Positions 12,042 to 49,600 of a stretch of 64,000 nucleotides of DNA are shown here, one piece after another. This stretch comes from Branchiostoma floridae. Lineage: Eukaryota > Chordata > Leptocardii > Amphioxiformes > Branchiostomatidae. The position numbers and the translations under genes are program-made. The notes under the pieces are model-generated. The model saw only the letters and a program-made list of their open reading frames with translations, had not been told where the DNA came from and ran no database searches. Numbering within the stretch: position 1 is the stretch's first letter; the number at the start of each line of letters is the position of its first letter. The stretch covers positions 24,268,068 through 24,332,067 of the forward strand of contig NC_049983.1 in the NCBI RefSeq assembly GCF_000003815.2, read 5' to 3'.

Positions 12042-12300
12042 CTGATCGCCTGTAATGTCCAGCAAAAACAACTTCTTCAATAAAAACTACGCTGAGGAAA
12101 AGTTGTACACGCTGTGTTTTCTTGCAAACACGTATTCACTGTAAGACCCACAGTCTCTTAAATGGCTGCATAAATAGTGTCACTATCACTGATGTAAAAG
12201 GTTAAGTGACAGTGACACGTCGGTGTTTGTAGAACGAGAAATAAACGCTGTATCGGAAGGTAAAATTTATGAAATATAAAGTAAGGTTGGCAGAAAACGA
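12042..12300 (+). other. Left-edge relic of the zinc-finger unit (3' UTR end and poly-A site, no fingers)
   Basis: The block running CTTCTTCAATAAA, ACTACGCTGAGGAAAAG, TTTTCTTGCA, GTTCACTGTAAGACCCACAG matches what follows ZNF2 (28610-28700), ZNF4 (39940-40025), ZNF5 (44200-44280) and, for its first part, ZNF6 (48350-48370). Here no finger exon precedes it; the LRR gene does. It marks the left border of the tandem duplication. Confidence 0.75.
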
Positions 12301-12304
12301 CAGA

Positions 12305-12601
12305 ATATTAATGAATGAATGAAGACCTTTATTGTACAGTTTTGCCCAACCGAGCTAAGTACAGGTCACAACAAGTCAGGATATATACATATAAAAGTAT
12401 CACAAATCTAGTCTACGCAAAAGTTCGGCTTCTTCTCGCTTGTTGGTAATGGTGAAAATGTAGGACTTCATGGGCTATTGTCGGTTTGTCAAAACGCATG
12501 AGAAATATAAACTTGTCAGTGCTACTCATGTGTCTAAAATGAGGGAATCTACTTTGCATATAACTAAATAGAGTAATAAACACGAAGGAACTTTGCCACA
12601 C
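12305..12601 (-). mobile_element. 3' end of a non-LTR retrotransposon (fragment)
   Basis: On the minus strand a short C-terminal frame (FPHFRHMSSTDKFIFLMRFD) ends with a stop, followed by a 3' tail with AATAAAGGTCTTC and ATTC tandem repeats, typical of LINE 3' ends. Cluster paralogs lack this stretch, so it is an insertion in the ZNF upstream block. The clade is uncertain (CR1-like suspected). Confidence 0.6.
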
Positions 12602-13340
12602 AATCCCTCAACAAGATCCCTTCTAAACCGTCCCCAGTATAAGCATGATTCAGAGTAAGAGCTGCAGATTGCGTGGTAAACTTCATGAATGGCTTTAAAA
12701 CTCTAGCATCAGAAGGCCGGATGGGTATAACGTTAGGTGTTTTTTTTTAGCATTTGTGTGTGTCAGATGATCTTTTGACAGTGATCGTATGTCCATAAGT
12801 GATATCCAAAGTTCATATTTATACTCTCCTGAACCAGCACATAGTGCTAGCCTGATTGTTAATACTATATACCATGTGTAAAACAGATTAGTTTCTTAGA
12901 TTTCTAGGTACTAGTAACTCATGTAGTTAAACTGTTCTGTATGTATTGTATGTACAAGTTGCCATACACTATCCTCTACAGTTGTCATGCAATAAAAGTT
13001 CTTCTTCTTCTTCTGTCAGTTGAAGCGGTGAAAGCCGGGAGAGGTGTACTGAGGTGTGTTGATCTACAGAGGAGCATTCATTAGTTGATCTATCTTTTAT
13101 CAGTTTTATGCCATCTTATGATGACAAAGATAACAAGACTGTAAATGTAACAACAAAGGAAACTTTACTGAAAGAGAATATCAACTTACCCAGTGACTGT
13201 TTGCATGTATTATCCAATACTTTCAAATGTTTGGCATTGAATTTTTGGTACCTAGGTGATTTAGTTAGAGACAAAAGACATCACACATTAATTTAGTATC
13301 AAGAACAATGAACACGTACTACCTACCATCCGTTAAAGTT
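12602..13340 (+). other. ZNF1 upstream block shared by the cluster
   Basis: CTRAACCGTCCC, a motif near AAGGCCGGA, and GAGAGGTGTACTGAGGTGTGTTGATCTACAGAGG-like segments recur at 28850-29190, 40085-40440, 44445-44950 and 49325-49580. Part of 12930-13015, ending in a CAATAAAAG and TTC-rich tail, may be a LINE 3' tail. No coding exon seen. Confidence 0.6.
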
Positions 13341-13571
13341 AAACGGAGACTTATGTACATGATTTAGGTAATCAGGTAAAAGAACTTGACTGCCGTCTGG
13401 CATATACTTCCGGGTCAGCGCATTGCGACTTCCTGTCTGCAGAGCTACGGTTCGTTTGGTACCTCGTCAACTTTCCTCGGTGTATCTTGAGTCGTTTTCA
13501 TCTCTGGGAAAGGAGTTCCGCGTTCATTTTGCAGTGATTCAACAGGCGACTGTGTATCGACTAAGTTTCAG
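13341..13571 (+). promoter_or_regulatory. ZNF1 promoter-proximal block and 5' noncoding exon
   Basis: This block is conserved upstream of all six zinc-finger genes. It contains ETS-type motifs ACTTCCGG (13406-13413) and ACTTCCTG (13428-13435), and ends at a splice donor, TTTCAG|GTAAG, after 13571. In the frame that would join the coding exon there is a stop just before the junction, so it is read as 5' UTR. The transcription start is not defined. Confidence 0.7.
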
Positions 13572-13804
13572 GTAAGAAAAGTTTGCTTGTTCCGGTATTC
13601 GAGGGTTTGTTGAGTCGCCAAAACCTCCTTGGCAAAACTCAGCGGGCAAAATATTGAATGTGTGGCGGCGTGGATTTTCGTTTGTAATCTGACCCATGCA
13701 TAAATTATGCACTGCACGGAATTATTCCGGCGACTGTTTATTTCAGTGTAACGGCGTATCGTAGTTTGGATCAAGAAATTATATCAGATGCTGGATCGTA
13801 CTGT

Positions 13805-14031
13805 TGTTACATATCCAGATAATCTCATCAGGCAAGACCCAGCATGCTTTATGGGGCCTTGGACCGAATCACTCTCAGCCAAATCACATGACCTATTTTT
13901 GTATCACTACACCACCACATGTACAGAGCTAGAAGTTTGTAGATTAAATCTTAGTCCGCTCATCAAGTGTCTCCTAGTCGTCCATCGTAGTCAACAGAGC
14001 ATTACAAGGAGTCAGGGAACACAACACAACA
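13805..14031 (+). repeat. 5' LTR
   Basis: 227 bp, TG to CA ends, matching the 3' copy base for base by eye. Confidence 0.95.
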
Positions 14032-14049
14032 TGGTGGCAGCGGTAAACC
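14032..14049 (+). promoter_or_regulatory. Primer-binding-site-like sequence
   Basis: TGGTGGCAGCGG directly after the LTR. The TGG start fits the CCA end of a tRNA. The tRNA was not identified. Confidence 0.6.
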
Positions 14050-14141
14050 AGAAATCCTGAGCTGTGCAGCGGGAGGAAGTCCCCAGAAAGCAGCGGAAAA
14101 ACCAGGAAATAACCCGCTCGACCAAGAACAAAGGATTCAAG

Positions 14142-16169
14142 ATGGCGGCGGCCCAACAAACCATGCTGACGACCTTGATCCCCGAAATGGACTGGAATGC
14201 AGATGACCCTGTCAAAACGTTTAAAAAATTCAAACAAAGGATCGAACTGGCATTCAAGACCTTCCTGAAAGACGCCACCGACGAAGAAAAGGTGAGCTAC
14301 TTACTCTTATTAGCAGGAGACGATGGGCTTGAGATCAGAAATAGCTGGGACCTATCTCCAGAACAGGAAAAAGATCCAAACAAAATCCTAGAGAAGTTCG
14401 AGAAACACTTAGAACCTAAGACAAACCACAGGATTTTCAGATATGAGTTCCAAAGCATGAGGCAAGGGCCCGAAGAATCCATCAGTGATTATATGTCAAG
14501 GCTAAAAAACGTGGCAGACAAATGCAACTTCAAAGACAAGACAGAGAAAGACGGGAGACTGCTAGATCAGATGATCTGGGGATGTGCATACAAAAAGGTA
14601 CAGAAGACCCTCATAGGGAAGCATGAACTGACCCTTGCGGCAGCCGTAAAGGAAGCCGTACAGCATGAGTCTACAGAGAAGTGCATGACAACGTTGACAA
14701 TCTCAACTCAAGCTAAAGAAGCAAAAGTCGATGCCATCTCTAGCAGAAAGCATACTCCAAGCTCAAAACAAAAGGCAAGCTACAGGCCTCCACAGAAACA
14801 GAGTTCAAACATCTGTAGAAATTGTGGTACCGAGCATGAGTTTAATGACAGGAAGAAGTGCCCAGCACATGGTTCCACTTGTAATGGTTGTGGAAAGCCA
14901 AACCACTGGAGGAAAATGTGCAGGTCAAAGGGCAAATCCAAGCCACAAGAATACAGGGGTTACAGAAAGGCTAATCCAAAACATGTGCACTACCAGCAAG
15001 CAGAGCAGTACTCCTCAGGAGAAGAAACACTGTCGGTAGGTGCCATATATGTCCATGAAGTGGAGCATGAGAATAATGTACACAGTAATGAAGCGTACAC
15101 AACTTTCCAACTCAAGAAGAAGATAGGAAAGAAGACAACAAACATCAATCTGCGATTGAAGATAGATACAGGGGCTCAAAGCAATGTCATGCCGGTAGAA
15201 CATTATCAACAGATATTCCCAGAGAACATGACAAAAGGTGGGGAAGTCAAAGCAGGAACCCTCACACCAAGCAGCACTGTATTATCAGCCTATGGTGGAG
15301 ACAAAATCCCACACCTGGGGAAGACAACCATCTCTGGAAAACACAAAGGCCGAGAGGTCAAGTGTACTTTCTTTGTGACCAAATCCAAGGGACCAAGCAT
15401 CCTCGGATTGGCAGCGTGCCAGCAGCTAGGCATCATCACAATCCATGAGATTCAAGCTACCCCAGAGGATGGCAAGATCAAAGAGACGGTGCCGATCAAG
15501 GACCGCCCTGCCATCCACAACAAGGAACAACTAATAAAGATGTACCCGGAATGTTTTGATGACACGGTAGGGTGCTTTGAAGAGGAGTACCACATCACTG
15601 TTGACCCAGACGTAGAACCAGTGATACATCCACCTCGCAGAGTGCCACTAGAGCTGCGAGAGAAGCTGAAGAAACAGCTGGAAGAGATGACGAAGAAAGG
15701 AGTCATCAGCGAGGTCACACAGCCAACAGACTGGGTAAACTCCATAGTAATAAAGGAGAAACCCAATGGCAAACTGCGGATCTGCCTCGATCCCAGAGAC
15801 CTGAACTTGGCACTCAAGAGGAACCACTACCCTACACCCACTCTAGAAGAGATAACACCCTCTCTGGCAGGAGCTAAGGTGTTTAGTAAGCTGGACGCCA
15901 GCAACGGGTATTGGAATATCAAAATAGACGAAGAATCTTCGCTGCTCACGACCTTCAACACGCCCTACGGCAGGTTCAAGTTCAACCGCCTCCCGTTCGG
16001 GCTGAAGGTCTCGCAGGACGTTTTCCAAAGGAAGATAGACGAAACGTACAAAGGGTGCAAAGGAACAATCGGAATTGCTGACGACATCCAGGTGTACGGG
16101 AAGACAGACGACGCTCACGACTTCCATCTGCACGAAGCGATGGAGAAGACCAGGCAAGAAGTCTCCTAG
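14142..16169 (+). pseudogene. Retrotransposon gag-protease-RT frame, cut off in RT
   Basis: The first in-frame ATG is at 14142; the open frame itself starts earlier with GTG at 14064. Gag is followed by a CCHC knuckle (CNGCGKPNHWRKMC), an aspartic protease motif (DTGAQ near 15165) and an RT fingers-palm region (KLRICLDPRDLN; catalytic IADD at about 16074-16085, where the usual first residue Y or F is replaced). About 28 codons after the DD box the frame hits a stop. The following frame resumes in the RT-RNase H connection, so the segment normally lying between is missing and the reading frame is shifted. Probably inactive RT. Confidence 0.9.
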
Positions 16170-16183
16170 GGCTCATTCAATAC

Positions 16184-18100
16184 ATGAGTGCTTTCATCCC
16201 CAAGCTCGCGGACAGAACGACAAACATCCGTGAACTGCTGAAGGAAGATGTTGAATACAAGTGGAGTGCATCACACACTGAAGACCTGAACAAGATAAAG
16301 CAGCTCATCAGTGAAAAGACAACACTGCAGTACTATGACAGGGAGAAACCCGTCATACTACAAGTAGATGCCTCAATCAAAGGAGTAGGTGCAGCACTAA
16401 TACAAGATGGAAAACCCATCGCATTCGCCTCAAAAGCCCTCTCACCGGCTGAAACAAGATACGCCAACATCGAGAGAGAGCTCCTGGCAGTAGTCTATGG
16501 ATGTGAGAAATTCCACACCTACTTGTACGGAAGAAGCTTCGAAGTCGAGTCGGACCACCGACCCTTGGAACAAATCAACAAGAAGAACCTCACAAAGGCA
16601 CCAAACAGGTTACAACGCCTGTTACTGCGACTACAAAGCTATGACATGAGCATCCGGTACAAACCAGGGAAAGAGATGCTACTAGCAGACGCACTCTCCA
16701 GGCTGTCACAGCACGACAAGCAAGAGATGGATGGTCTCAAAGTCCAGATCCATCACCTCGTAAAAGTGACAACTGTGAAACTGGAGCAGATCAAAGAGGA
16801 GACCAGCAAGGATGAAGAGCTCCAACTACTCGCCCAGACAGTGACACAGGGATGGCCAGAGAAAAGAAAAGAGACACAAGCAATAATACACGAATACTGG
16901 ACCATCCGAGACGACATCTCGGTAGAGGATGGAGTCCTCCTGGCTGGGTCCAGGATGATTATACCCAAGTCCATGAGAGCAGAGGTCCTAGAGATGATTC
17001 ATCAAGGACACCTGGGTATCGAGAAATGCATACTCAGAGCAAAATCTGCAGTCTACTGGCCGGGCATGTACAAACAAATCGAGAAAGCAGTTGCAGCATG
17101 CCCCACATGCCAAAAGCACAAGAACTCGCAACAGAAAGAAGAGATGATGCCAACAGAGATACCAAGCAGACCATGGCAAACAGTAGGCATGGATCTGTTT
17201 ACCACCAATGACCAATGGTTTCTACTCCTGGTAGACTACTACTCCAAATTCCCATTTGTGAAGAGTCTCGCCAACCTGAAGGCATCAACAGTAACATCCA
17301 GCATACGAGGTATATTCGCCGAACAAGGGATCCCAACAGAAGTCATATGCGACAATGGGACACAATTCACATCCCAAGAGTTCCGGCAGCTGGCCAACGA
17401 GTACGGATTCAAAATCACAACATCATCACCGCACTACCCAAAGGGGCATGGATTTATAGAAAGACATGTACAGACGGTGAAGAAAACGCTGATCAAATGC
17501 AAAGAATCAAGATCAGACCCAAACCTAGCCATGCTAGCCATCCGCACCACACCGATCAAGCCAGGTATGAAATCGCCAGCGGAGCTGTTAAACGGACGGA
17601 AGTACAAAGACATCTTGCCAACCAAAGTACCTCCACCACTTGACCAGGAAGAAACAAGGGCCAAGCTGGAAAAGGCACAGCAAGCAGCGAAACAGCACTA
17701 CGACACCCAGGCAAAGAGTCTGCCTGAGCTGGCCAAGGGCCAGAGCATCCACGTACAGGATCCTATCCGAAAAACGTGGAGCCCCGGCAAAGTCATCGAT
17801 AAAGCTACAACACCGAGATCATATGTTGTAGAGACCGACGCCGGGAGACAACTGAGAAGAAACAGAGTACACATACGACCAACTCCAGAAGTGAAAGTAC
17901 CTGCAGCTACAACTCCAGAGACAACACCTGCAGCGTCAGCAACGCAGACTACACATGAGTCGACCCTACAACCACCAACTATTGCAGCACCACACGCGAC
18001 GACACCGAGTACGACAAAGCCGACATCCGCGACAACGCCGAGTACGACAAAGTCAACGAGAACGAGGTCGAACATCCAACCACCAGTGCGTTACCGCTGA
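16184..18100 (+). pseudogene. Retrotransposon RNase H-integrase frame, detached from RT
   Basis: 638 codons. It opens in the connection region (related codons are open a little upstream of the ATG). RNase H follows (QVDASIKGVGAAL), then the integrase zinc-binding region (H-x3-H in MIHQGHLG, CPTC), the integrase core (DLFTTND, CDNGTQF, GFIERH) and a basic C-terminus with a threonine/proline-rich tail. Both domains look intact, but the frame is separated from gag-RT by the deletion and has no start context of its own. It is annotated as part of a defective copy. Confidence 0.88.
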
Positions 18101-18309
18101 CGAGAGAAAGAACTGTTCTCAGATAGAAAAGAACTGAGAAAGAGATTAGACTAGAACTGTTCTTAGAAGTTAGATGCAAAGTATAACTGCTGAAAACCAT
18201 TGATATTGTTAAAGTACTAACCAAAAGTTGAAACAAACATAAGAACAAGTGCAAAACAAGAGCTGGACAAGGACTCTAAAAAAAAAACCAGCCAGAGACT
18301 ATTCTACTT

Positions 18310-18322
18310 AAAGAAAGAGGGA
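18310..18322 (+). promoter_or_regulatory. Polypurine tract
   Basis: AAAGAAAGAGGGA immediately before the 3' LTR, the expected plus-strand priming site. Confidence 0.75.
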
Positions 18323-18549
18323 TGTTACATATCCAGATAATCTCATCAGGCAAGACCCAGCATGCTTTATGGGGCCTTGGACCGAATCACTCTCAGCCAA
18401 ATCACATGACCTATTTTTGTATCACTACACCACCACATGTACAGAGCTAGAAGTTTGTAGATTAAATCTTAGTCCGCTCATCAAGTGTCTCCTAGTCGTC
18501 CATCGTAGTCAACAGAGCATTACAAGGAGTCAGGGAACACAACACAACA
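18323..18549 (+). repeat. 3' LTR
   Basis: 227 bp, TGTTACAT to ACACAACA, followed by the target duplication ACTGT. Confidence 0.95.
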
Positions 18550-18921
18550 ACTGTTGTTTGCTTTTCTCTCACAATTTGATGGTCGGAAGCTGACGGAGCG
18601 GAGAAGAAAACGTAAACAGATCGTGAGGGTCGACAGGGGGTTAGTAGATCTTACTGAGTATTTCAATAGTTGGCTTTTTTGTATCACGACGCAGTATTGA
18701 ATTCCTATGTACCGTATATGAAATCCATTGTTATGACGGCCCAATGATTTTGGTATTGGTGGGGGCCTTGTTGATCTGTCTTATGTATCCACATGTATAC
18801 TAAAACCCCTGCGTGCGCCCCGGCACCAGAGTTTCTGCAAATTCTCCACATCTGGATTCCATCCCGCCGTTCGGTCAGACAGGGGTGTGGGAGGCCGAGG
18901 GGCGGTTCACTACTGTCTAGT

Positions 18922-19307
18922 CAGGGTTCTCCCCAGAATTTTTTAGTATAGTGGAGGGGCTGGCAAAAATAACCCGTACCAACGCGCTGCGCTTTCATGA
19001 AAATGGCTTTATTTTGCATTGACAGAGGGTGTCAAATATTAAAGTATAATACATTATTGTGATTCCTTTGTTGTGAAGTGGCAAAATGACTATTGTTTTG
19101 ATCATCCCCCATTCACAAGTATTTACAGACAATGCAGACTGGAAAAGTGATAGAACGACACAAAAATCTGTGACTTTCCTTAATTTTAACAAAACTAACC
19201 GACCAAGAAAATAGGGAAGAAACACACTAAATTTCAAAAGTATAGCGGAGCTGGGCTAGGAGTCTAGTGGAGGCCCTCCGCTATTCCATCCTCCGGGGAA
19301 GACTCTG
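18922..19307. mobile_element. hAT-like MITE (copy A)
   Basis: It starts CAGGGTTCTCCCCAG and ends with an imperfect inverse (CCGGGGAAGACTCTG). It is about 386 bp and AT-rich inside, with no coding capacity. Flanks TGTCTAGT and CTGCTAGT are an imperfect 8-bp duplication. A second copy sits in the ZNF2 intron. Confidence 0.7.
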
Positions 19308-19647: not shown

Positions 19648-20811
19648 ATGGCGACCACAGACAGCATACAAGGTGTGGATGATGTCAGGAGAGGAGCAGC
19701 AGGGGGTTCTGCCAACAGTGTTCTCACCTGGCAAGGAGAGAAACGTGAGGAGTTCGGGGAAGAGTCCAGCAGGCGAAGCAAAAGTGTGAGGGTCTACAGG
19801 TGTGAGGAGTGCAGCAAGCAGTTCAAGCTGCTGGGTCATCTTAAAGTACACATACGGACTCACACAGGTGAGAAACCCTACAGATGTGAGAAGTGCAACG
19901 GGCAATTCAGATCGCCAGATCATCTGAAGTTGCATCAGCGGACTCACACTGGTGAAAAACCCTATAAGTGTAAGGATTGCGGCAAGCAGTTCAGTCAGAT
20001 AGCTCATTTGAAGACTCACATGCGTACTCATACAGGTGAGAAACCTTACAAGTGTGAGGAGTGCAGCAAGCAGTTCAGTCAGCTGGTTCATCTGAAGACT
20101 CACATACGGACGCACACAGGTGAGAAACCCTACACGTGTGAAGATTGCAGCATGCAGTTCAGTCAGGGGAGTGATCTGAAGAGACATATGCGGACTCACT
20201 CAGGGGAGAAACCTTTTATGTGTGAGGAGTGCAGCTGGCACTTTACTGATCTGAGTAATCTGAAGAAACACATGCGGACTCACACAGGAGAAAAATCGCA
20301 CAGGTGTGAGGAGTGCAGCAGGCAGTTCAGTGCGCTGAGTGATTTGAAGAGACACATGAAGACTCACACGGGGGACAAACCTTACAGGTGTGAGGAGTGT
20401 AGCAAGCAGTTCCGTAGGCGGAGTCATCTGAAAAGCCACATGCTGACTCACACAGGGGAAAAACCGTACAGGTGTGAGGAATGTAGCAAGCAGTTTGGCT
20501 TGCCGGGTCACCTAAAGATACACATGAGGACTCACACAGGTGAGAAACCCTACACCTGTGAGGGGTGCCGCAAGCAGTTCAGTACGCTGAGTGCTCTGAA
20601 GAGCCACATGCGGACTCACACAGGAGATAAACCTTACAAGTGTGAGGAGTGCAGCAAGCAGTTTGGTAGGCCGTGTGACCTGAAGATACACATGCGAACT
20701 CACACGGGGGAGAAACCCTACAGGTGTGAGGAGTGCAGCAGGCAGTTTAGTACGCTAACTGGTCTAAAGGCTCACATGAAAACCCACAGGAGAGAAACCA
20801 AACAGATGTAA
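19648..20811 (+). CDS. ZNF1: C2H2 zinc-finger protein, 12 fingers
   Basis: 387 residues in one coding exon. The ATG (GACATGG context) follows an acceptor (ATAG ending at 19624), and the stop is TAA at 20809-20811. Residues 1-55 form the cluster-specific module ([17 protein letters not shown] and [11 protein letters not shown]), with no KRAB, SCAN or BTB. Twelve tandem C-x2-C-x12-H-x3-H fingers follow, joined by THTGEKPY linkers, with helix cores such as KLLGHL, RSPDHL, SQGSDL, RRRSHL and GRPCDL. Zinc ligands appear complete in all twelve. A nuclear DNA-binding role is inferred from the family; target and effector function are unknown. It is the first of six paralogs; its intron carries the LTR retrotransposon. 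Confidence 0.93.
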   Translation: MATTDSIQGVDDVRRGAAGGSANSVLTWQGEKREEFGEESSRRSKSVRVYRCEECSKQFKLLGHLKVHIRTHTGEKPYRCEKCNGQFRSPDHLKLHQRTHTGEKPYKCKDCGKQFSQIAHLKTHMRTHTGEKPYKCEECSKQFSQLVHLKTHIRTHTGEKPYTCEDCSMQFSQGSDLKRHMRTHSGEKPFMCEECSWHFTDLSNLKKHMRTHTGEKSHRCEECSRQFSALSDLKRHMKTHTGDKPYRCEECSKQFRRRSHLKSHMLTHTGEKPYRCEECSKQFGLPGHLKIHMRTHTGEKPYTCEGCRKQFSTLSALKSHMRTHTGDKPYKCEECSKQFGRPCDLKIHMRTHTGEKPYRCEECSRQFSTLTGLKAHMKTHRRETKQM

Positions 20812-22301: not shown

Positions 22302-22724
22302 GTTCCTAAACGTGGAACATGCGGCTCCAGCGTCTTTTCTGAAGATGTGGCGTAAGTGTGAACGGCTGGCTTGAGGTTGCCCTTCTCCATATACTCTACA
22401 TTTCTACTCTCAACTCAAAATGTAATAGTTTGTCTTTCGCTAGTGCATCCGAGTATAACATTTGCCACGTCGAGGCCAGCTGTTCTGGTACCGTAAAAGG
22501 CGTAAGGATCCACAAATGGGAGCCTTTTACCCCTCCAGTTATAATCAAACTCTGAAGATTATTTCCGAAATTCCGACAGCTCAAATCTAAAACCTAGTAA
22601 TTTACGCTGTGCGTATGTGACATATATCGGCTGAAGTAGGTGCATAATGACATGTAAATATGGGTTGTCTGCAATGAAGCTGGATTGTTGAAGACAAGTG
22701 TTACCGAATCAACCACAGCTCGTC
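22302..22724. other. Spacer between ZNF1 and ZNF2
   Basis: No gene or repeat boundary recognised. Only short unconserved frames occur. Confidence 0.4.
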
Positions 22725-22951
22725 GGAGGCTCATGTACATTTGTTAGGTAATCAGGCAATCAATTTGACCTTTGTCAGTGAAGTATTTCCGGGTCACCAC
22801 ATTGCGACTTCCTGTCTGCAAGGATACGGCTTGTTTAGTATCTCCTCAGCTCGAGTCTTCTTGAGATCTCGAGTCGTTTTTTCGTCTCTAGAAAAGCAGT
22901 TCCGCAGCCATTGTGCAGTGATTCAACAGGCGACTGTGCATCAACTTTCAG
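22725..22951 (+). promoter_or_regulatory. ZNF2 promoter-proximal block and 5' noncoding exon
   Basis: Homologous to 13341-13571. The first ETS-like motif has drifted (ATTTCCGG); the second, ACTTCCTG, is kept at 22807-22814. It ends at TTTCAG|GTAAG after 22951. Confidence 0.7.
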
Positions 22952-24727: not shown

Positions 24728-25552
24728 ATGGCGACAACAGAGAGCGAACAAGGTGTGAATGACGTCAGGAGAGGAGCAGCAGGGTGTTCTGCTAACAGTG
24801 TTCTCACCTGGCAAGGAGAAAGATGTGAGGAGTTCGGGGAAGAGTCCAGCGGGCGAGGCAAAGGTGTGAGGGTGTACAGGTGTGAGGAGTGCAGCAGGCA
24901 GTTCAGTCGGCCCAGTAGTCTGAAGAGACACATGCAGACTCATCTAGGGGTAAAACCCTACAGGTGCGAGGAATGCGGCAAGCAGTTCAGTCAGTTGGAT
25001 GATCTGAAGAAGCACAAACGGACGCATACAGGAGAGAAACCCTACAGGTGTGAGGAGTGCTGCAAGCAGTTCAGTCAGTTGTGTGATCTGAAGAGACACA
25101 AACGGACTCACACAGGAGAGAAACCCTACAGATGTGAGGAGTGCAGCATGCAGTTCAGTCAGTTGGGTCATCTGAAGTCTCACATGCGGACTCACACAGG
25201 GGAAAAACCCTACAAGTGTGAGGAGTGCAGCAGGCAGTTCAGTCAGTTGAGTGATCTGAAGAAGCACAAACGGACTCATACAGGAGAAAAACCATACACG
25301 TGTGAGGAGTGCAGCAGGCAGTTCAGTGAGCTGGCTAGTCTGAAGAGACACATGCGGACTCACACAGGAGAGAAACCCTACAGATGTGAGGATTGCAGCA
25401 GGCAGTTCAGTGATCTGCGTAATCTGAAAAGACACATGCGTACTCACACAGGTGAGAAACCTTACGGGTGTGAGGAGTGCAGCAGGCCGTTCAGTCAGTT
25501 GGGTCATTTGAAGACTCACATGAACACCCACATGAGAAAAATCCAACAGTAG
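24728..25552 (+). CDS. ZNF2: C2H2 zinc-finger protein, 8 fingers
   Basis: 274 residues in one coding exon after a TTTTTACAG acceptor; stop TAG at 25550-25552. The N-terminal module is the shared one ([17 protein letters not shown]). There are eight C2H2 fingers with cores SRPSSL, SQLDDL, SQLCDL, SQLGHL, SQLSDL, SELASL, SDLRNL and SQLGHL. The linker after finger 1 is altered (THLGVKPY). Helices rich in SQL-x-D-L suggest local finger duplication. Expected nuclear DNA-binding protein; target unknown. Confidence 0.93.
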
Positions 25553-29174: not shown

Positions 29175-29188
29175 TAATCCAGTGATTT

Positions 29189-29916: not shown

Positions 29917-30072
29917 TAATCCAGTAATTTTTTTGCATATCTTATCCCCTCCTTTTCGTCAATGTTTGGCATTTGACTTTTAGTGCGCCGGTAGCAAATT
30001 TAGTTGGAGACAGAAGTCATCACATATCAATCTAGTAGAACAAACAACACGTACTGCCGTCAACGATCAGTT

Positions 30073-30299
30073 AAACGGAGGCTCGTGTACATTTGTTGGG
30101 CAATCAGGTAAAGTTTGACCTCCACCTAGCATATACTTCCGGGTCAGCGCATTGTGACTTCCTGTCTGCAGGAATACAGTTTGTTTACTGCAGTGTCGAG
30201 TCTTCCTGTGCTCTTGAGCCATTTATCGTCTCTAGAAAAGGAGTTCCGCAGTCATTGTGCAGTGATTCAACGGGCGACTGTGTATCGGCCAAGTTCAAG
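30073..30299 (+). promoter_or_regulatory. ZNF3 promoter-proximal block and 5' noncoding exon
   Basis: Homologous to the other five. ACTTCCGG lies at 30135-30142 and ACTTCCTG at 30157-30164. Splice donor TTCAAG|GTAAG follows 30299. Confidence 0.7.
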
Positions 30300-31773: not shown

Positions 31774-33111
31774 ATGGCGACAACAGACAGCGTACAATGT
31801 GTGGATGACGTCAGGAGAGGAACAGCAGGGGCTTCTGCCGACAGTGTTCTCACCTGGCAAGGAGAAAGATGTGCACGTGAGGAGTTCAGGGAAGAGTCCA
31901 GCGGGCGAGGCAAAGGTGTGAGGGTGTACAGGTGTGAGGAGTGCAGCAAGCAGTTTAGTCAGCTGGGTCATATGAAGACCCACATGCGTACTCACACAGG
32001 GGAGAAACCTTACATGTGTGAGGAATGTAGCAAGCAGTTCAGGGAGCTGGGTACTCTGAAAAAGCACCTGCGGACTCACACTGGGGAGAAGCCCTACAAG
32101 TGTGAGGAGTGTAGTAAGCAGTTTAGTCGACAAAGTACTCTGAAGAGACATTTGCGGACTCACACAGGAGAGAAACCCTACAAGTGTGAGGAGTGTAGTA
32201 GGCAGTTCAGTCGGCTGGGTCATCTAAAGACTCACATACGGACTCACACAGGGGAGAAACCCTATACGTGTGAGGAGTGTAGCCGGCAATTCAGTCAGCA
32301 GGGTGATCTAAAGACTCACATACGGACTCACACAGGTGAGAAACCTTACAGGTGTGAGGAGTGTAGTGTTCAGTTTAGTCAGCTTAGTCATCTGAAGAGA
32401 CACATGCGGACTCACACAGGGGAGAAACCCTACACGTGTGAGGAGTGTAGCAGGCAGTTTAGTCGGCCGAGTACTCTGAAGACACACATGCGAAGTCACA
32501 CAGGGGAGAAACCCTACACGTGTGAGGAGTGCAGCAGGCAGTTCAGTACACTGACTCATCTGAAGAGTCACATGCGGACTCACACAGGGGAGAAACCCTA
32601 CAACTGTGAGGAGTGCAGCAAGCAGTTCAGTACACTGACTCATCTGAAGAGTCACATGCGGACTCACACAGGAGAGAAGCCTTACAGTTGTGAAGAGTGT
32701 AGCAAGCAGTTCAGTGATCTAGGCAATCTGAAGTCTCACATGCGGACTCACACAGGGGAGAAACCGTACAACTGTGAGGAGTGCAGCAAGCAGTTCAGTA
32801 CACTGACTCATCTGAAGAGTCACATGCGGACTCACACAGGGGAGAAACCCTACAACTGTGAGGAGTGCAGCAGGCAGTTCAGTCACTTAATAGCTCTGAA
32901 GACTCACATACGGACTCACACAGGTGAGAAACCCTACAGGTGTGAGGAGTGCAGCAAGCAGTTCAGTCAGCTGGGGAATCTGAAGTCTCACATGCGGTCT
33001 CATACTGGGGAGAAACCCTACAACTGTGAGGAGTGCAGCAGGCAGTTCAATCAGCAGGGTGATCTAAAGACTCACATACGGACTCACACGGGAGAAACCT
33101 TACCCATGTGA
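31774..33111 (+). CDS. ZNF3: C2H2 zinc-finger protein, 14 fingers, last finger lost by frameshift
   Basis: 445 residues, with the ATG after a TTTTTACAG acceptor. It carries the shared N-terminal module ([17 protein letters not shown]) with two extra residues (RCAREEF), then fourteen fingers. Fingers 8, 9 and 11 have the same core (STLTHLKSH), a sign of recent internal duplication. After finger 14 the linker codon run is GGAGAAACC where other linkers read GGAGAGAAACC. The 2-bp loss shifts the frame and ends the protein at TGA 33109-33111. The original frame continues to 33193 and would have encoded a fifteenth finger plus a tail like the paralogs. The truncation removes one finger only, so the protein is probably still functional. 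Confidence 0.92.
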
Positions 33112-33193
33112 AGAATGTAGCAAGCAGTTTAGTCATTTGAGTAGTCTGAAGAGTCATAGGAAAACCCACAAGAGAGAAACCCACCAGGAGTGA
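33112..33193 (+). pseudogene. Frameshifted last finger and tail of ZNF3
   Basis: Out of frame with ZNF3, this stretch still reads [14 protein letters not shown], then H-x3-H and a short basic tail ending at TGA 33191-33193. It is untranslated if the 2-bp loss is real. Confidence 0.85.
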
Positions 33194-35092: not shown

Positions 35093-35130
35093 CGAGAAAG
35101 TGTTATGGTATCTGATCACTCAGTAATCAT

Positions 35131-35366
35131 CGGAGGCTCATGTACATTTCTGGGGTAATCAGGTAAAAGCAGTTGACCTCTATCTGAGATTTACATCCGG
35201 GTCACCACATTGCGACTTCCTGTCAGCAGGAATACGGTTTGTTTCGTCAAGGACGTTGGTTTCGTGCATCCTCGAGTCTTTTTGTGGTCTTTTCGTCTCT
35301 GGACAAAGAGTTCCGACCTCTTTGTGCAGTGATTCAGCAGGCGACTGTGTATCGACTAAGTTACAG
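35131..35366 (+). promoter_or_regulatory. ZNF4 promoter-proximal block and 5' noncoding exon
   Basis: The first ETS-like site is changed (ACATCCGG); ACTTCCTG is kept at 35215-35222. Donor TTACAG|GTAAG follows 35366. Confidence 0.7.
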
Positions 35367-36308: not shown

Positions 36309-37469
36309 ATGGCGACAACAGACAGCACACAAGGTGTGGATGACGTCAGGAGAGGAGCAGCAGGGGGTTCTGCCAACAGTGTTCTCACCTGGCAAGGAGA
36401 GAGACGTGAGGAGTTCGGGGAAGAGTCCAGCGGGCGAGACAAAGGTGTGAGGGTTTACAGGTGTGAGGAGTGCAGCAAGCAGTTCAAGCATCTATGTCGT
36501 CTAAAGACTCACATGCGGACTCACACAGGTGAGAAACCCTACAGGTGTGAAGAGTGTAGCAGGCAGTTTAGTCGGCGGGAAAATCTAAAGAAACATATAC
36601 GGACTCACACAGGGGAGAAACCGTACAAGTGTGAGAAGTGCAGCAAGCAGTTCAATGAGCTCGGTCATCTGAAGTCTCACATGCGCACTCACACAGGAGA
36701 AAAACCCTTCACATGTGAGGAGTGCAGCAAGCAGTTCGTCGAGCTTAGTAATCTGAAAACTCACATGCGCACTCACACAGGTGAGAAACCCTACAAGTGT
36801 GAAGAGTGCAGCAGGCAGTTCAATATGCCTAGTCATCTAAAGGAACACATTCGGACCCACACTGGAGAGAAACCCTACAGATGTGAGGAGTGCGGCATGC
36901 AGTTCAGTACGCTGGGTAATCTGAAGAGACACATGCGGACTCACACAGGGGAGAAACCCTACAGATGTGAGGAGTGCAGCAGGCAGTTCAGTCGGCTGGA
37001 TGATCTGAAGACTCACATGCGGACTCACACAGGGGAGAAACTGTACAGGTGTGAGGAGTGTAGCAGGCAGTTCAGTGAGCTGAGTGATCTGCATAGACAC
37101 ATGCGGACTCACACAGGGGAGAAACCCTACAAGTGTGAGGAGTGCAGCAGGCAGTTCCGTACGCTGGGTCATCTTAACGTACATATGCGAACTCACACAG
37201 GTGAAAAACCTTACAGGTGTGAGGAATGCAGCAAGCAGTTCGGGCAGCTTAGTAATCTGAAGTCTCACATGCGGACTCACACAGGGGAGAAACCGTTCAA
37301 GTGTGAGGAGTGCAGCAGGCAGTTCAGTCGGCTGGGCGATCTGAAGTCTCACATGCGCACTCACACAGGTGAGAAACCGTACAGATGTGAGGAGTGCAGC
37401 AGGCAGTTCAGTAAACTGAGTAATCTGAAGGTGCACATGAAAACCCACAGGAAACAAACCAAGCTGTAG
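36309..37469 (+). CDS. ZNF4: C2H2 zinc-finger protein, 12 fingers
   Basis: 386 residues in one coding exon; stop TAG at 37467-37469. The shared N-terminal module ([17 protein letters not shown]) is followed by twelve C2H2 fingers, all with complete zinc ligands: KHLCRL, SRRENL, NELGHL, VELSNL, NMPSHL, STLGNL, SRLDDL, SELSDL, RTLGHL, GQLSNL, SRLGDL and SKLSNL. These cores are the most varied in the cluster, so this gene likely has a distinct DNA target. The acceptor is TTTTTACAG before the conserved GAC-ATGG start. Confidence 0.93.
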   Translation: MATTDSTQGVDDVRRGAAGGSANSVLTWQGERREEFGEESSGRDKGVRVYRCEECSKQFKHLCRLKTHMRTHTGEKPYRCEECSRQFSRRENLKKHIRTHTGEKPYKCEKCSKQFNELGHLKSHMRTHTGEKPFTCEECSKQFVELSNLKTHMRTHTGEKPYKCEECSRQFNMPSHLKEHIRTHTGEKPYRCEECGMQFSTLGNLKRHMRTHTGEKPYRCEECSRQFSRLDDLKTHMRTHTGEKLYRCEECSRQFSELSDLHRHMRTHTGEKPYKCEECSRQFRTLGHLNVHMRTHTGEKPYRCEECSKQFGQLSNLKSHMRTHTGEKPFKCEECSRQFSRLGDLKSHMRTHTGEKPYRCEECSRQFSKLSNLKVHMKTHRKQTKL

Positions 37470-39530: not shown

Positions 39531-40455
39531 ATTATAACCGTTAAATATCAATCTTTATTATAGGTTTAAGGTTGAATTGTTTTAGAGATTATTTTGTTTA
39601 GTTCACAACGTAGTCCTTGTTAGCATAGGTTAAAAGTTTATCTTTATAGGATAGTTTGTGAAGTTTGCATTGTAGTTCACTGAAGAGTTCATTAATAGAT
39701 CTAGACAGCAGTTGATAGTATATTTCATATTATGACATGTTTCACAGTTTTGTATTTTTGTTAATCATTTCTATTACATAATTCATTGCTTTGTTAACTT
39801 TGTTGTTGTTCTATTAGCTATTATTCTACTAGCACAAGTCTAGTTGAAACGAAGTGACCAATAACCCCTAAAGGTCTATCTGTAGTGAATTCCGTGCAAA
39901 CGTAGCATCATGTGATTCCCTGTACACTGCACCCTGCACAATATTCTTCAATAAAGCTATGTTGAAGAAAAGTTTTGTATATTGTGTTTTCTTGCAGGTA
40001 TGTGTTCACTGTAAGACCCACAGCCCCTTATTTAAGTTAAGCTTGAATGGCGATATGGGTAGAACGGAAATGAAATTTTGTCACACCCCTCTACAACATC
40101 CTTTCTGAACCGTCCCTATAAAGCAAAGTTCATATTTGAAGCTGAAGTATATTTGATCTACAGGGGCAAGAATTAGTTGATCCATCATTTATATCACCGT
40201 GTAAAATGACAATGATACGAGGGCTGTTAGAGCAACAACAACGGACACTTCAGCGGGATTGAATATCAAAGAGCTAAATCAAAATATAAACTTATCCAGG
40301 GATTGGTTTCATATCTTATACCTCAGTTTTCGTAACTGATTGGCATTTGTTTTTTGCCATATGTACTTGGTAGATCAATTGGAGACAAAAGTAATCACTA
40401 ATTTAGAATTAAAGAACAATCAACACGTACTTCCTTCAACGAATGAATTAAAGTT
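39531..40455 (+). other. End of ZNF4 3' region and upstream block of ZNF5
   Basis: Cluster-shared sequence. AATAAA lies at 39950-39955 in the conserved TTCTTCAATAAAGCTA context. CACACCCCTCTACAACATCC marks the upstream block at about 40082. Confidence 0.6.
39950..39955 (+). terminator. Polyadenylation signal of ZNF4 (conserved position)
   Basis: AATAAA in the context shared with ZNF2 and ZNF6. Confidence 0.6.
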
Positions 40456-40684
40456 AAACGGAGGCTTATGTACATTTGTTGGATAACCAGGTAAAGGAAT
40501 CTGACCTCCTCCAGCATATACTTCCGGGTCAGCGCATTGCGACTTCCTGTCTGCGGGAGCACGGTTTGTTTACTGTAATCGCGAGTCTTCCTGTGCTCTT
40601 GAACCGTTTTTCGTCTCTGGAAAAGGAGTTCCGCAGTCATTTTGCAGTGATTCAACAGGCGACTTTGAATCGACTAAGTTCCAG
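40456..40684 (+). promoter_or_regulatory. ZNF5 promoter-proximal block and 5' noncoding exon
   Basis: ACTTCCGG lies at 40520-40527 and ACTTCCTG at 40542-40549, 22 bp apart as in ZNF1 and ZNF3. Donor TTCCAG|GTAAG follows 40684. Confidence 0.7.
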
Positions 40685-42240: not shown

Positions 42241-43068
42241 ATGGCGACAAAAGACAGCGCACAAGGTGTGGATGACGTCATGAGAGGAGCAGCAGGGGGT
42301 TCTGCTAACAGTGTTCTCACCTGCCAAAGGGACAGACGTGAGGAGTTCGGGAAAGGGTCCAGCGAGCGAGGCAAAGGTGTGAGGGTGTACAGGTGTGAGG
42401 AGTGCAGCAGGCAGTTCAGTCAGCTGAGTAATCTGAAGAGACACATGCGGACTCACACAGGGGAGAAACCCTACAAGTGTGAGGAGTGTAGCAGCCAGTT
42501 CAGTCAGCTGGGTCATCTGAAGTCACACATGCGGACTCACACAGGTGAGAAACCCTACAAGTGTGAGGAGTGCAGCAGGCAATTCAATGAGCTTGGCAGT
42601 CTGAATAGACACATGCGGACTCACACAGGGGAGAAGCCTTACAGATGTGAGGAGTGTAGCAGGCGGTTCAGTCAGCTAGGGAATCTGAAGGAGTACAAGC
42701 AGACTCATACAGGGGAGAAACCATACAAGTGTGAGGAGTGCAGCAAGAAGTTTAGTTGGCTAGGTAATTTAAATGAGCACAAGCTGACTCATACAGGGGA
42801 GAAGCCCTACAGGTGTGAAGAATGCAGCAGGCAGTTCAGTCAGCTGAGTAATCTGAAGAGACACATGCGGACTCACACAGGGGAGAAACCCTACAAGTGT
42901 GAGGAGTGTAGTAAGCAGTTCAGTCAGCTGAGTGATCTGAAGACTCATATGCGGACTCATACAGGGGAGAAACCCTACAGGTGTGAGGAGTGCAGCAGGC
43001 AGTTCAGTCAGCTGAGTAATATGAAGGTACACATGAAAGCCCACCGGAAACAAACCCACCAGAAGTGA
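42241..43068 (+). CDS. ZNF5: C2H2 zinc-finger protein, 8 fingers, one degenerate
   Basis: 275 residues in one coding exon; stop TGA at 43066-43068. The shared N-terminal module reads [17 protein letters not shown]. Eight fingers have cores SQLSNL, SQLGHL, NELGSL, SQLGNL, SWLGNL, SQLSNL, SQLSDL and SQLSNM. In finger 4 the first zinc histidine is a tyrosine (LKEYKQTH instead of LKRHMRTH; codon TAC near 42691), so this finger probably does not fold normally. The last finger keeps both histidines (VHMKAH). The other ligands look complete. It is the shortest finger set together with ZNF2. Confidence 0.93.
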
Positions 43069-44439: not shown

Positions 44440-44955
44440 TCACACCCCTCTACAAGATCATTTCTGAACCGTCCCTAGTATAAGCATGATTGAGAAAAGG
44501 CAAAGTAAATTGCCCTGTCAACTTCATAAGTGGATTAAAAGCTGTCGTCAGAAGGCCGGAAGAATTTGGGATTTCATAGCGTCTGTATGTGTTAAATGAT
44601 CTGCTGACATAGCTTGTATGTTTGAATGTTATCAAAAGTTCATATTTGAGACGGTGAAAGCAGGAGAGATATATATTAAACTACAGTTGATCTACAGAGA
44701 ATCATCATTTACGTCATCGTGTTATAATGTTAAAGATAATCGTTAAGAAGTGCAACAATAACGGACAAGTCTGTGGAAGAGAATATCAACTTATCCTTTG
44801 ATTATTTGTATACCTTATACCCCCCTTTTCGTAAATATTTTGGTTTTTGGTACGCCGGTAGTTAAGTTAGTGACAGAAGTCATCACATATCAATTTAGTA
44901 TTAATAACACGTGCTGCAGTCAACACGTGCTGCCGTCAACGAATAAGTTAAAGTT
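44440..44955 (+). other. Upstream block of ZNF6
   Basis: CACACCCCTCTACAAGATC, GAACCGTCCCTAGTATAAGC and GTTGATCTACAGAG match the other upstream blocks. Confidence 0.6.
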
Positions 44956-45181
44956 AAACGGAGGCTCGTGTACATTTGTTGGGCAATCAGGTAAAATTTG
45001 ACCTCCATCTTGCATGTACTTCAGGGTCAGCGCATTGCGACTTCCTGTCTGCAGGTTTACAGGTTTGGTGCCTCGTCAAGTTTCCTTGGTGTATTTTGAG
45101 CCGTTTTTCGTCTCTGGAAAAGGAGTTCCGCCTTCATTTTGCAGGGATTTAACAGGCGACTGTGAATCAACAAAGTTTCAG
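44956..45181 (+). promoter_or_regulatory. ZNF6 promoter-proximal block and 5' noncoding exon
   Basis: The first ETS-like site has changed (ACTTCAGG at 45018); ACTTCCTG is kept at 45040-45047. Donor TTTCAG|GTAAG follows 45181. Confidence 0.7.
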
Positions 45182-46534: not shown

Positions 46535-47686
46535 ATGGCGACAACAGACAGCGTACAAAGTGTGGATGACGTCAGGAGAGGAGCAGCAGGGGGTTCTGCC
46601 AACAGTGTTCTCACCTGGCAAGGAGAAAGGTGTGAGGAGTTCAGCGGGCGAGTCAACGGTGTGAGGACGTACAGGTGTGAGGAGTGTAGCAGGAAGTTCA
46701 GTAAGCTAAGTGATCTGAAGAGACACATACGGACTCACACAGGGGAGAAACCTTACAGATGTGAGGAGTGCAGCAGGCAGTTCAGTCAGTTGGGTCATCT
46801 TAAGGCCCACATGCGGACTCACACAGGTGAGAAACCCTACAGGTGTGAGGAGTGCAGCAAGCAGTTTAGTCGTCAGAATACTCTTAAGTCTCACATGCAG
46901 ACTCACACAGGCGAAAAACCTTACAAGTGTGAAAAGTGCAGCAAGCAGTTCGGCATTCTGTGTCACCTGAAGAGACACATGCGGGCTCACACAGGAGAGA
47001 AACCCTACCGATGTGAGGAGTGCAGCAGGCAGTTCAGTACACCACATCATCTTAGAGGACACCGACGGACTCACACCGGTGAGAAACCGTACAAGTGTGA
47101 GGAGTGCAGCAGGCAGTTCAGTACGCTGTATAATCTGCAGAGGCATATGCAGACTCACACAGGTGAGAAACCATACCAGTGTGGAAATTGTGGCAGGCAG
47201 TTCAGCGAGCTTTGCAATTTGAAGAACCACATCTATACTCATACAGGTGAGAAACCCTACAGGTGTGAGGAGTGCAGCAGGCAGTTCAGTGTGCTAGGTA
47301 ATCTGAAGAAACACATTAAGACTCACACAGGAGAAAAACCCTACAGGTGTGAGGAGTGCAGCAAGCAGTTCAGTGAGATAGGCAGTCTGAAGAGACACAT
47401 GCGAACTCACACAGCAGAAAAACCCTACAGGTGTGAGGAGTGCAGCAGGCAGTTTAGTCAGCTGGGCGATCTGAAGAGACACATGCGGACTCACACAAGG
47501 GAGAAACCTTACAAGTGTGAGGAGTGCAGCAGGCAGTTCAGGCGTCTGGATCATCTGAAGCAACATGTGCGGTCTCACACTGGGGAGAAATTTTACACAT
47601 GTGAGGAGTGCAGCAGGCAGTTTAATCAGCTCGGTAATCTGAAGAGGCACATGAAAACCCACAGGAGAGAAATCCAACAAAAGTGA
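46535..47686 (+). CDS. ZNF6: C2H2 zinc-finger protein, 12 fingers
   Basis: 383 residues after a TTTTGTAG acceptor; stop TGA at 47684-47686. The shared N-terminal module reads [17 protein letters not shown], but the spacer to finger 1 is shorter ([16 protein letters not shown]). Twelve fingers have cores SKLSDL, SQLGHL, SRQNTL, GILCHL, STPHHL, STLYNL, SELCNL, SVLGNL, SEIGSL, SQLGDL, RRLDHL and NQLGNL. Finger 7 differs at the knuckle (CGNCGRQF), and one linker reads THTAEKPY. Zinc ligands look complete. Last complete gene of the cluster. Confidence 0.93.
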
Positions 47687-49131
47687 CGCCTTTGGCATAA
47701 CAAGTTATTTCACAAGGTCCTTTGATACACAATGTGAGAACTATCGGTGTAAAGATAGCATGATTAGTGCAGGAGAGTCTCACTAGTGTAGGGATGTAAC
47801 CAAAAGCATCAAGTGACAACAAGTTCATAAACATGTCCTTTTTCTTTGCTTTTCATTTTTTTGACTACATCACCTTTTTTTACAAATATGTGTTATCTTA
47901 GCTATATCTGTATTCATTGTAGACTGAATGCTATTGTAGTTGACGCAAACATTGCACAATGTATCTCAATTCTTGAACAGAAAAAGGAGGGAGAGTTGAT
48001 CTAGAAAAGTTTTAACATTTCAAATATATTTTAGCGTTATATATTTTGGGTTGGTTTCTTTAAAGTAGTTCTGTTAGAAGTAATAAGCAATATGTTTCTG
48101 AGTCCACTAGCATGCAGCAGTAACCAAGTTGCATTTTTGATAGCAACTTTATTTTGTTTATATGTTATTAGTTTTGGTATCTTTTATTTTACAGCATGTT
48201 GATTTGTAGGTCATTTTTATAAAGCGTATTTGTTATATGTTAGACAGTATTATTATAATAGTTAGAGGTTGAATAGCTTTATATCTTTTTTGGTTAGATC
48301 ACAAGGAAGTTCTAGTAGCATCAATTGATTTCCTGTACTGTCTAGCGAACATTCGTCAATAAAGCTACGCCGAAGCATGTTGATTCCTGGTTTTGTAGGT
48401 CATTTTGATGTAGGTATTTGTTCTAGTTTAAATAGTTCTGTTATAGGTTAAAGGTTGAATAGTTTTATAGGTAATATTTTTTAGCTATCGTAGGTCAAAT
48501 GTTAGATAGCTTTAAAGGTTAGTTGTGAAGTTTGCTAGGTAGTTCATTGAGATGTTATGACCTATATTTACTGAGGAGTTCAGTTAAAAGATAGCACCTT
48601 TGTTTTTTCTGCCATTAGTTTTGATATGTTGTACAGCACTTGTTAAGCATTTCTATTACATTATTCGGATTAACAATACTTTGTCTTTGTGTTATTATAT
48701 TAGCTTATAGTTCTACTAGTCTTGAACCGATATCACCTATAAGCTGCAAAGGTCTATGAATAGTGGGAGTACATACATACATACATAACGATTATTTTGA
48801 CTGTATTTGTGCTTTTATTAGACAAATGCTTTGAATTAGGAATTTCATTGAGGATGACAAGTAGTAGTATATTTCCTCCTAGCAACCGTCATCATTCACT
48901 CTATTCTTCATCCACAGTTTGTGTTTAAGGTTTCCTCCTAGCAACACATATGCACATATTTTTACTTTCCATATTATAATAGTTATTTTTTCATTATTAA
49001 GTAAGTATTGGCAAATTTGTGAAGATTGTATGTAAAACAAAGAACAAACACATAGGACAAAAGTTCTCACGATTTACTAGATCGAACCCATTGCTTTCCT
49101 CACGCTCTTAGTCGAAAATAGATGGCCCGTG
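47687..49131 (+). other. ZNF6 3' region and spacer
   Basis: Colinear with other ZNF 3' regions, with GGTTGAATAG repeats. Beyond about 48770 (CATACATACATACATA microsatellite) I recognise nothing. Confidence 0.55.
48358..48363 (+). terminator. Polyadenylation signal of ZNF6 (conserved position)
   Basis: AATAAA in the context TTCGTCAATAAAGCTACG, as after ZNF2 and ZNF4. Confidence 0.6.
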
Positions 49132-49237
49132 TAATCTCCAAGTAGATGTGCCGGGGATAAGATAGTATCCATGACGACTTGGGTAGTGTTTAGCCGTTTG
49201 GATACTGTCTTGCATTTGGTAGATCTGCTTGGATATT
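49132..49237. mobile_element. Foldback element, CTCCAAGCAG family, diverged
   Basis: Arms TAATCTCCAAGTAGATGTG and AGATCTGCTTGGATATT. The interior is similar to 34531-34661. Confidence 0.65.
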
Positions 49238-49324
49238 GGGCTTGCGCACTTTATCACTTGTTGAGCCTTTAGGTAACGTTGGAGCAGAGGGACTAACTCG
49301 AAGGGAGTTTATCAAGATTTTTTG

Positions 49325-49600
49325 TTCTGAACCGTCCCTAGAATATGCATGATTGAGAGTAGGCGCAGCAGATTGCCTGGTAAACTTCATAAGTGGCTTA
49401 AAAGCTCTAACGTCAGAAGGCCGGATGGGTATGGGCTTTAATAGCATTTGTACGTGCTAAATCTGTTGACACGGCTCGTATGTCCATGAGTGTTATCCAA
49501 AGTTCACATTTGGAGCGGAAAGCTGGAGAGAGATGTACTGAACTATAGCTGATGTACAGAGGAGCGTCCATTAGGATGATTGCCACATGAGGTACCCTTG
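49325..49600 (+). other. Right-edge relic of the zinc-finger unit (upstream block only)
   Basis: GAACCGTCCCTAGAATATGC, AAGGCCGGATGGGTATG and AGAGATGTACTGAACTATAG match the upstream blocks of ZNF1-ZNF6, but no promoter exon or finger exon follows. The TRPC-like gene starts instead. This marks the right border of the duplication. Confidence 0.75.

Follow-up and report, generated by a model that had tools for sequence, protein, structure and literature searches.

The KRAB zinc-finger (KRAB-ZNF) genes of tetrapods lie in tandem clusters, carry the whole finger array on one exon, have fast-changing DNA-contact residues and undergo birth and death, and the ZAD zinc-finger (ZAD-ZNF) genes of insects bear ZAD, a zinc-coordinating domain. 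Lineage-specific poly-C2H2 genes with fast-changing contacts are a known style of gene family. In cyprinid fish, the FiNZ sequence is 28 residues long, rich in Glu and encoded on its own exon ahead of the finger exon; in the available parts of the FiNZ study, the contact residues are reported to be enriched for a ratio of nonsynonymous to synonymous substitution rates (dN/dS) > 1 in two of seven clades, and repeat control by these genes is backed by knockdown (PMC10547256). The words 'Branchiostoma', 'lancelet' and 'cephalochordate' are absent from the main text of that paper. Here we analysed a 64,000-base stretch of the Branchiostoma floridae genome (C5:24268068-24332067, hereafter the window; the genome has 513,431,437 bases in 431 contigs) that contains a cluster of six zinc-finger genes, all of which open with the same short N-terminal sequence, which we call the leader. 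Taken as a whole, our results are best explained if the six genes form a lineage-specific, fast-diversifying poly-C2H2 zinc-finger family that would operate in the manner of KRAB- or FiNZ-ZNF genes while lacking KRAB, which we consider probable. Such a family bears on the open question of whether KRAB-like systems emerge repeatedly, in any genome under pressure from repeats: the lancelet lineage diverged close to the chordate root, and the genes scanned here are without KRAB.

The cluster resembles the KRAB-ZNF genes of tetrapods in its tandem arrangement, single-exon arrays, fast contacts and birth and death, but the scanned leaders lack KRAB (Pfam) and exon 1 contains in-frame stops in five of the six genes. 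With the ZAD-ZNF genes it shares lineage-specific expansion and a C2H2 array preceded by an N-terminal element, but the leader matches nothing in Pfam and lacks conserved cysteines. The likeness to the FiNZ genes, as far as the accessible text describes them, extends to lineage-specific expansion, clustering, C2H2 arrays and a short N-terminal sequence without known domain; the leader described here is longer (47-53 residues), near neutral in charge and encoded on the same exon as the fingers. Its continuity with finger 1 in all six genes sets them apart from the separate-exon organisation given in the FiNZ description.

The initial annotation of this DNA had proposed a six-gene zinc-finger cluster whose members differ mainly in finger number (8-14) and in helix contact residues, and this held up. 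All six proteins qualify as poly-C2H2 (Krueppel-type) proteins: genes 1 to 6 encode 12, 8, 14, 12, 8 and 12 fingers, a sum of 66 under a relaxed rule that accepts Tyr in place of the first His in finger 4 of gene 5, or 65 in-frame fingers under the strict rule. The fingers have the form C-x2-C-x12-H-x3-H with canonical TGEKP-like linkers, and zf-C2H2 and zf-H2C2_2 matches (Pfam) were obtained for each protein. We defined the contact codons as -1, 2, 3 and 6 and the scaffold as the remaining 17 of the 21 finger positions. With all finger pairs pooled, the proportions of nonsynonymous and synonymous differences (pN and pS) were 0.503 and 0.420 at the contacts and 0.098 and 0.435 at the other 17 codons. 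Parsimony counts on a tree built from the scaffold codons only, used for these short sequences without a likelihood test, gave 194.5 nonsynonymous and 43.5 synonymous changes at the contacts, against 103.7 and 102.3 in the scaffold, that is, a site-corrected ratio of 1.16 versus 0.22 (Fisher p 3e-12). Relative to synonymous change, the contacts therefore evolve about five times faster than the scaffold, as in the KRAB- and FiNZ-like mode of evolution, and the result that the initial annotation had named as a refutation, contacts no faster than the rest, did not arise. By position the ratios were 1.28 at -1, 1.66 at 2, 3.00 at 3 (with two synonymous changes) and 0.86 at 6, and nonsynonymous counts were higher at each of the four contacts than at any of the other 17 positions; one scaffold residue, two before the conserved Phe, had a ratio of 2.67 on 1.3 synonymous changes. 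The finger Cys, Phe and His are nearly fixed and the scaffold is strongly constrained. The 66 fingers carry 59 distinct contact quartets, three of which are common to more than one gene, and fingers have also been duplicated internally (fingers 8, 9 and 11 of gene 3, and fingers 1 and 6 of gene 5, are near-identical). These data support a fast diversification of the DNA specificity of the arrays, parsimony counts alone being no proof of positive selection. The proteins would be regulators that act in the nucleus and bind DNA sequence-specifically, with a separate long target site for each, and new specificities would come from point changes at the contacts and recombination within arrays, under the same promoter and start peptide.

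In the anatomy of the units and the mode of evolution of the family, as read from the DNA, we have high confidence. Each unit consists of a promoter-like block, a probable non-coding exon 1, an intron and a single coding exon for the leader and 8-14 fingers; leader and array share one open frame on the plus strand in all six genes of the window. The blocks were delimited by alignment across the six genes, the leaders by open frame and leader alignment, and the coding sequences by open frame and finger count. In gene 1, the promoter-like block with the probable non-coding exon 1 covers 13332..13571 and has a TTCCGGGTCAGCGCATTGCGACTTCCTGTC core; the donor, CAG/GTAAG, lies after 13571, the leader (51 residues) at 19648..19800 and the coding sequence (leader and 12 fingers) at 19648..20811. 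The block with exon 1, the leader and the coding sequence are found at 22712..22951, 24728..24880 (51 residues) and 24728..25552 (8 fingers) in gene 2, and at 30060..30299, 31774..31932 (53 residues) and 31774..33111 (14 fingers) in gene 3, where the frame is closed by a frameshift and a scan of the other frame detected a fifteenth, out-of-frame finger at 33107..33169. They are located at 35127..35366, 36309..36461 (51 residues) and 36309..37469 (12 fingers) in gene 4, at 40445..40684, 42241..42393 (51 residues) and 42241..43068 (8 fingers, with Tyr replacing the first His of finger 4) in gene 5, and at 44942..45181, 46535..46675 (47 residues) and 46535..47686 (12 fingers) in gene 6. Long antisense frames opposite the arrays were set aside as by-products of the repeated finger codons.

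The upstream regions of all six genes have long blocks in common (blastn), and the unit alignments support the view that the six units arose via tandem duplication of whole units, in line with the tandem expansion originally suggested. The 100 kb to each side, searched as twenty 10-kb pieces, yielded no additional leader copy (best E 0.36). In the alignment of the six units the promoter-like block contains TTCCGGGTCA...GACTTCCTGTC, with a deviating first site in genes 4 and 6; we take this pair to resemble two ETS sites. The donor AG/GTAAG is conserved in every unit (at 13571, 22951, 30299, 35366, 40684 and 45181), and a pyrimidine-rich tract followed by AG lies 21-23 bases upstream of every leader ATG. 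A conserved D-x-x-P-D-I-x-D before the ATG, together with a phase 1 acceptor, had suggested an upstream coding exon, and this pre-Met stretch is oddly similar in the leader copies of C4 and C13 as well. When exon 1 was joined to exon 2 in the frame of the leader (240 bases per unit, the gene 1 acceptor being read two bases further on than the others), stops appeared in genes 1, 3, 4, 5 and 6, and the frame of gene 2 was without Met, which ruled this candidate out. Since exon 1 is stopped in frame in five units and has no Met in the sixth, the leader is probably the true N-terminus of the predicted proteins and exon 1 probably 5' untranslated.

The initial annotation had also described a common module of about 60 residues, different from KRAB, SCAN, BTB or ZAD. 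The same leader is indeed present in all six proteins, at a length of 51, 51, 53, 51, 51 and 47 residues (genes 1-6), shorter than proposed. In the six-leader alignment, 28 of the 53 columns are invariant, conserved cysteines are absent, and the leaders of genes 2-6 are 82, 78, 90, 76 and 81% identical to that of gene 1. Because of this alignment, and because all 18 pairings of the six window leaders with three leaders elsewhere in the genome gave matches (E 2.9e-14 to 7.6e-28), a chance likeness is excluded. Pfam scans of the six window leaders and ten leaders of the wider family returned no family at E up to 10, and no KRAB, SCAN, BTB/POZ or ZAD domain among them, in agreement with the original proposal. 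Profile searches of the Protein Data Bank (PDB) likewise gave nothing convincing, with no match below E 0.13; the two best (E 0.13 and 0.77), both to a ribosome-biogenesis factor, were taken as chance.

The leader had been regarded as the cluster's own, and this did not survive a wider survey. Our sample comprised the N-termini at 46 zinc-finger loci beyond the window, eight as listed and 38 hand-picked (five of these on contig 8), so that fractions among the 46 are not genome frequencies. The long leader occurs at six of them (C5:24.78, C5:24.79, C4:4.81, C4:4.92, C13:1.59, where it is shortened, and C14:0.85 Mb), three other chromosome-sized contigs being involved. A shorter relative, approximately M[AS][ST]TS..Q[SG]LxDVRR.A, is found at 11 loci on five more contigs (C7, C12, C16, C17 and C144), the least complete examples being L043, L062 and L065, and intermediate-looking leaders with weak scores (tblastn E 0.009 and 0.023) at two loci, both on C2. 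At L057, L059 and L065 the leader was located by tblastn and not in the frame read through the array. As long, short and intermediate leaders together account for 19 of the 46 loci, on ten contigs, the leader is not private to the six-gene cluster; it is, by its sequence, one form of a wider leader family and not the mark of one cluster. Profiles of the long and short leaders (10 and 8 sequences) aligned over 21 columns in a single comparison (E 1.6e-8), and the two forms, on nine contigs, have a core of about Q-x-[VL]-D-D-V-x-R-x-A in common. Among 21 leaders, a set that omits L041 (same core as L040), L043 (without the DVRR part), L063 and L064, Met 1 is universal, 20 leaders have Gln 8 and 20 have Val 13, and Asp 12, Arg 15 and Ala 17 are each found in 19. 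Such a definable core makes it straightforward to identify family members in the various lancelet species, and to count and test them.

Leaders of other kinds were also encountered. A second, unrelated-looking type, MATxxxSHLKQ...RTHK with variants, was seen at 14 of the 46 loci on C8, C10, C12 and C18 (L001, L002, L004-L006, L008, L033, L037, L049, L050, L052-L054 and L059). L003 has a different leader whose end is similar to that type, and the remaining 13 loci have other leaders or no readable start. Each zinc-finger cluster would seem to have its own leader style.

As to what the leader does, we favour a short unstructured peptide whose core would act as a weakly constrained docking motif, and we place a functional docking peptide just short of an even chance. 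The alternative with the best standing, which we judge a serious possibility if appreciably below even, is that the leader is an inert start peptide, kept alike through recency or gene conversion, and that the fingers alone work. Several observations weigh against a docking function. Within the cluster, dN is 0.095 and dS 0.089, and since the resulting dN/dS is 1.06, the protein-level constraint that would have been expected of the leader was not found there; an inert peptide is compatible with this value, at a dS of only 0.09. Comparisons with the two other chromosome-5 copies (dN/dS 1.05), between C4 and C13 (0.96) and within the single C4-C4 pair (3.06) point the same way, and over codons 2-18 the 45 cluster pairs have a mean pN of 0.295 and pS of 0.416 (ratio 0.71), with single dN/dS values spanning 0.22 to 5.12. 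None of the CtBP, Groucho, EH1, HP1 and SNAG motifs, searched as patterns, occurs in any of the six leaders. The charge-hydropathy rule classes five of the six as disordered, and AlphaFold predicted residues 1-49 of the leader with two fingers at pLDDT < 50 without secondary structure, from an alignment of six sequences in which the finger part was also poor, averaging 50-70 per block. The leader thus appears disordered, as these predictions weakly suggest, and this too suits an inert peptide. With none of five corepressor motifs, predicted disorder and a within-cluster dN/dS near 1, the term 'effector module' of the initial annotation is not borne out. The quite different leaders at other zinc-finger loci (the 14 and 13 of 46 described above) likewise fit a start peptide without function.

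An inert peptide is harder to reconcile with the divergence between chromosomes, where leader dN/dS falls to 0.52 against C4 (dS 0.31) and to 0.32 against C13 (dS 0.52), comparisons in which the L039 leader is seven residues short as read and L032 was missed. It also leaves aside that one core is common to long and short leaders on nine contigs and that single residues within it are nearly fixed while their codons vary: residue 8, which is Gln in 20 of the 21 leaders, has a pN of 0.02, and residue 12, which is Asp in 19, has a pN of 0.09, with synonymous sites varying freely. Protein constraint on the leader is therefore weak and uneven, as judged from these substitution patterns, and bears mainly on a few residues, which itself counts against a strong docking role.

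The nucleotide identity of the leader cuts both ways. Among the eight chromosome-5 genes, leader DNA is 88-95% identical, and the adjacent intron 50 to 94%; a plateau of this kind, the same whether the intron is 50% or 94% identical, is what homogenisation of an inert peptide would give. The identity climbs right at the splice acceptor before the leader, an edge that conversion has no reason to respect. Leader dS (0.09) compares with pS values of 0.35 in finger 1 and 0.59 in finger 2 (scaffold plus linker in both) and of 0.29 in the scaffold of the last finger. At invariant residues, the degenerate codons that vary number 3 of 28 for the leader, 4 of 10 for finger 1, 10 of 11 for finger 2 and, in five genes, 2 of 11 for the last finger, so that on this count the last finger is not clearly distinct from the leader; mean pairwise codon differences are 0.043, 0.133, 0.370 and 0.136, respectively. 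Gene conversion or nucleotide-level constraint could each account for the low leader dS: the sharp exon edge favours nucleotide constraint, and the flat identity irrespective of age, with freer synonymous change between chromosomes, favours conversion.

The targets of the arrays are the second point on which readings diverge. Repeats would be the most likely targets, because the KRAB-ZNF and FiNZ-ZNF families with this mode of evolution act on repeats, and transposon control by the six genes is plausible on this analogy. We hold only tentatively that repeat control is the main job of the family. It is possible, and we say so with the same reserve, that this is a real regulatory family with non-repeat targets, for example developmental or immune genes, whose contacts diversified after duplication. 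Fast contacts indicate a changed specificity and not its target, and all six units conserve the ETS-like promoter block, a kind of promoter that would suit broad expression. Expansions of C2H2 genes in cephalopods are discussed in connection with nervous-system evolution, in the accessible part of PMC12513265. Moving targets, however, are better suited by 59 quartets in 66 fingers and one fully exchanged array. The most specific version of our favoured account goes further, to an effector peptide of the lancelets' own, independent of KRAB, ZAD and FiNZ, in which the leader would dock a silencing factor and arrays would be swapped at the leader-finger boundary under a 5' cassette as they follow changing repeats; we think this unlikely.

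The exchanged array belongs to L047 (C5:24778400-24783900), which is encoded on the other strand at a distance of about 0.49 Mb from gene 2. Over most of the promoter and intron, L047 and gene 2 are 0.87-1.00 identical per 75-base bin, the exceptions being stretches with indels and a few poorly aligned bins (0.46-0.72); the intron as a whole is 94% identical. The leader bins stand at 0.91 and 0.95, the array from +150 falls to 0.69-0.87, and beyond the array identity drops to 0.32-0.56; in its 3' flank L047 shares 80% identity with the flank of gene 3 and 39% with that of gene 2. None of its seven contact quartets matches any of the eight of gene 2. The simplest account of this mosaic would be a recombination near the leader-finger boundary that placed a gene-2-type 5' cassette before another array, and it offers a concrete route to new DNA specificities under an existing promoter and start peptide. 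The neighbouring L048 (C5:24.79 Mb) is frameshifted inside its array and, with L047 and the frameshift of gene 3, amounts to birth and death with cassette exchange as judged from sequence, a single recombinant giving no rate. That most of the cluster is in decay, the remnant of an expansion turning into pseudogenes, is very improbable: the out-of-frame last finger of gene 3, the missing zinc ligand in finger 4 of gene 5, the L048 frameshift and a young 4.7 kb element in the gene 1 intron would fit it, but long open frames and promoter and splice sites are kept in all six genes, the scaffold ratio is 0.22, and finger Cys, Phe and His are nearly fixed.

The fast-diversifying family that we favour has a place in earlier descriptions of the species. 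Numerous recent, species-specific C2H2 expansions have been reported in B. floridae, with single fingers treated by pedigree (PMC5588721), and the six genes probably belong to them, as far as the accessible parts of that paper allow; these parts describe no leader. The available text of PMC12513265 names B. floridae among species with C2H2 expansions, that of PMC7806126 describes another lancelet zinc-finger protein, with four fingers, that represses in zebrafish, that of PMC2604467, a study of selection on zinc fingers, contains no lancelet term, and that of PMC5041008 has nothing on the leader. The leader was not described in the literature searched, which comprised titles, the starts of abstracts and two leader strings and lay mostly outside subscription papers. 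As far as these searches reach, the leader, its spread and core, and the clear 5' cassette exchange are new.

The window also contains mobile elements. The intron of gene 1 contains a 4.7 kb element (13805-18549) with mutually identical 227-base long terminal repeats (LTRs) and ACTGT on both sides, in which a first frame has matches to gag and reverse transcriptase and a second, overlapping frame to RNase H and integrase; we presume it to be Ty3-like, and the identity of its LTRs indicates that it is young. Breaks in the unit alignments reveal further unit-specific insertions in gene 3 (29188-29928) and gene 5 (~37993-39542). As the insertions of genes 1, 3 and 5 are absent from the other units, they would be later than the duplications. 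Their presence is no demonstration that the genes control transposons. Within the gene 3 insertion, 58-base inverted repeats (93%) at 29220-29917 flank a 166-residue frame without Pfam match, which we take to resemble a Penelope-type GIY-YIG endonuclease. The ~1.5 kb exclusive to the gene 5 unit holds a 311-residue frame on the minus strand (38514-39449), also without Pfam match. The introns of genes 1 and 2 have a stretch of 0.4 kb in common (18916-19307 and 23989-24383, 84% alike), to which the other units had no match in blastn of the units and which is probably a dispersed repeat.

Beyond the cluster, three frames of a LINE-like element at 58217-61525 match endonuclease, reverse transcriptase and zf-RVT. 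Palindromic elements containing CTCCAAGCAGA lie at 62719-62890 and 58132-58290; similar stretches, like miniature inverted-repeat transposable elements (MITEs), occur within introns (genes 2, 5 and 6). Tandem repeats spaced 31-32 bases apart cover 63378-63794. The flanking host sequence includes pieces of two genes, one with leucine-rich repeats and an EGF domain (10253-11503) and one with a match to TRP_2, transient receptor ion channel (52424-52966).

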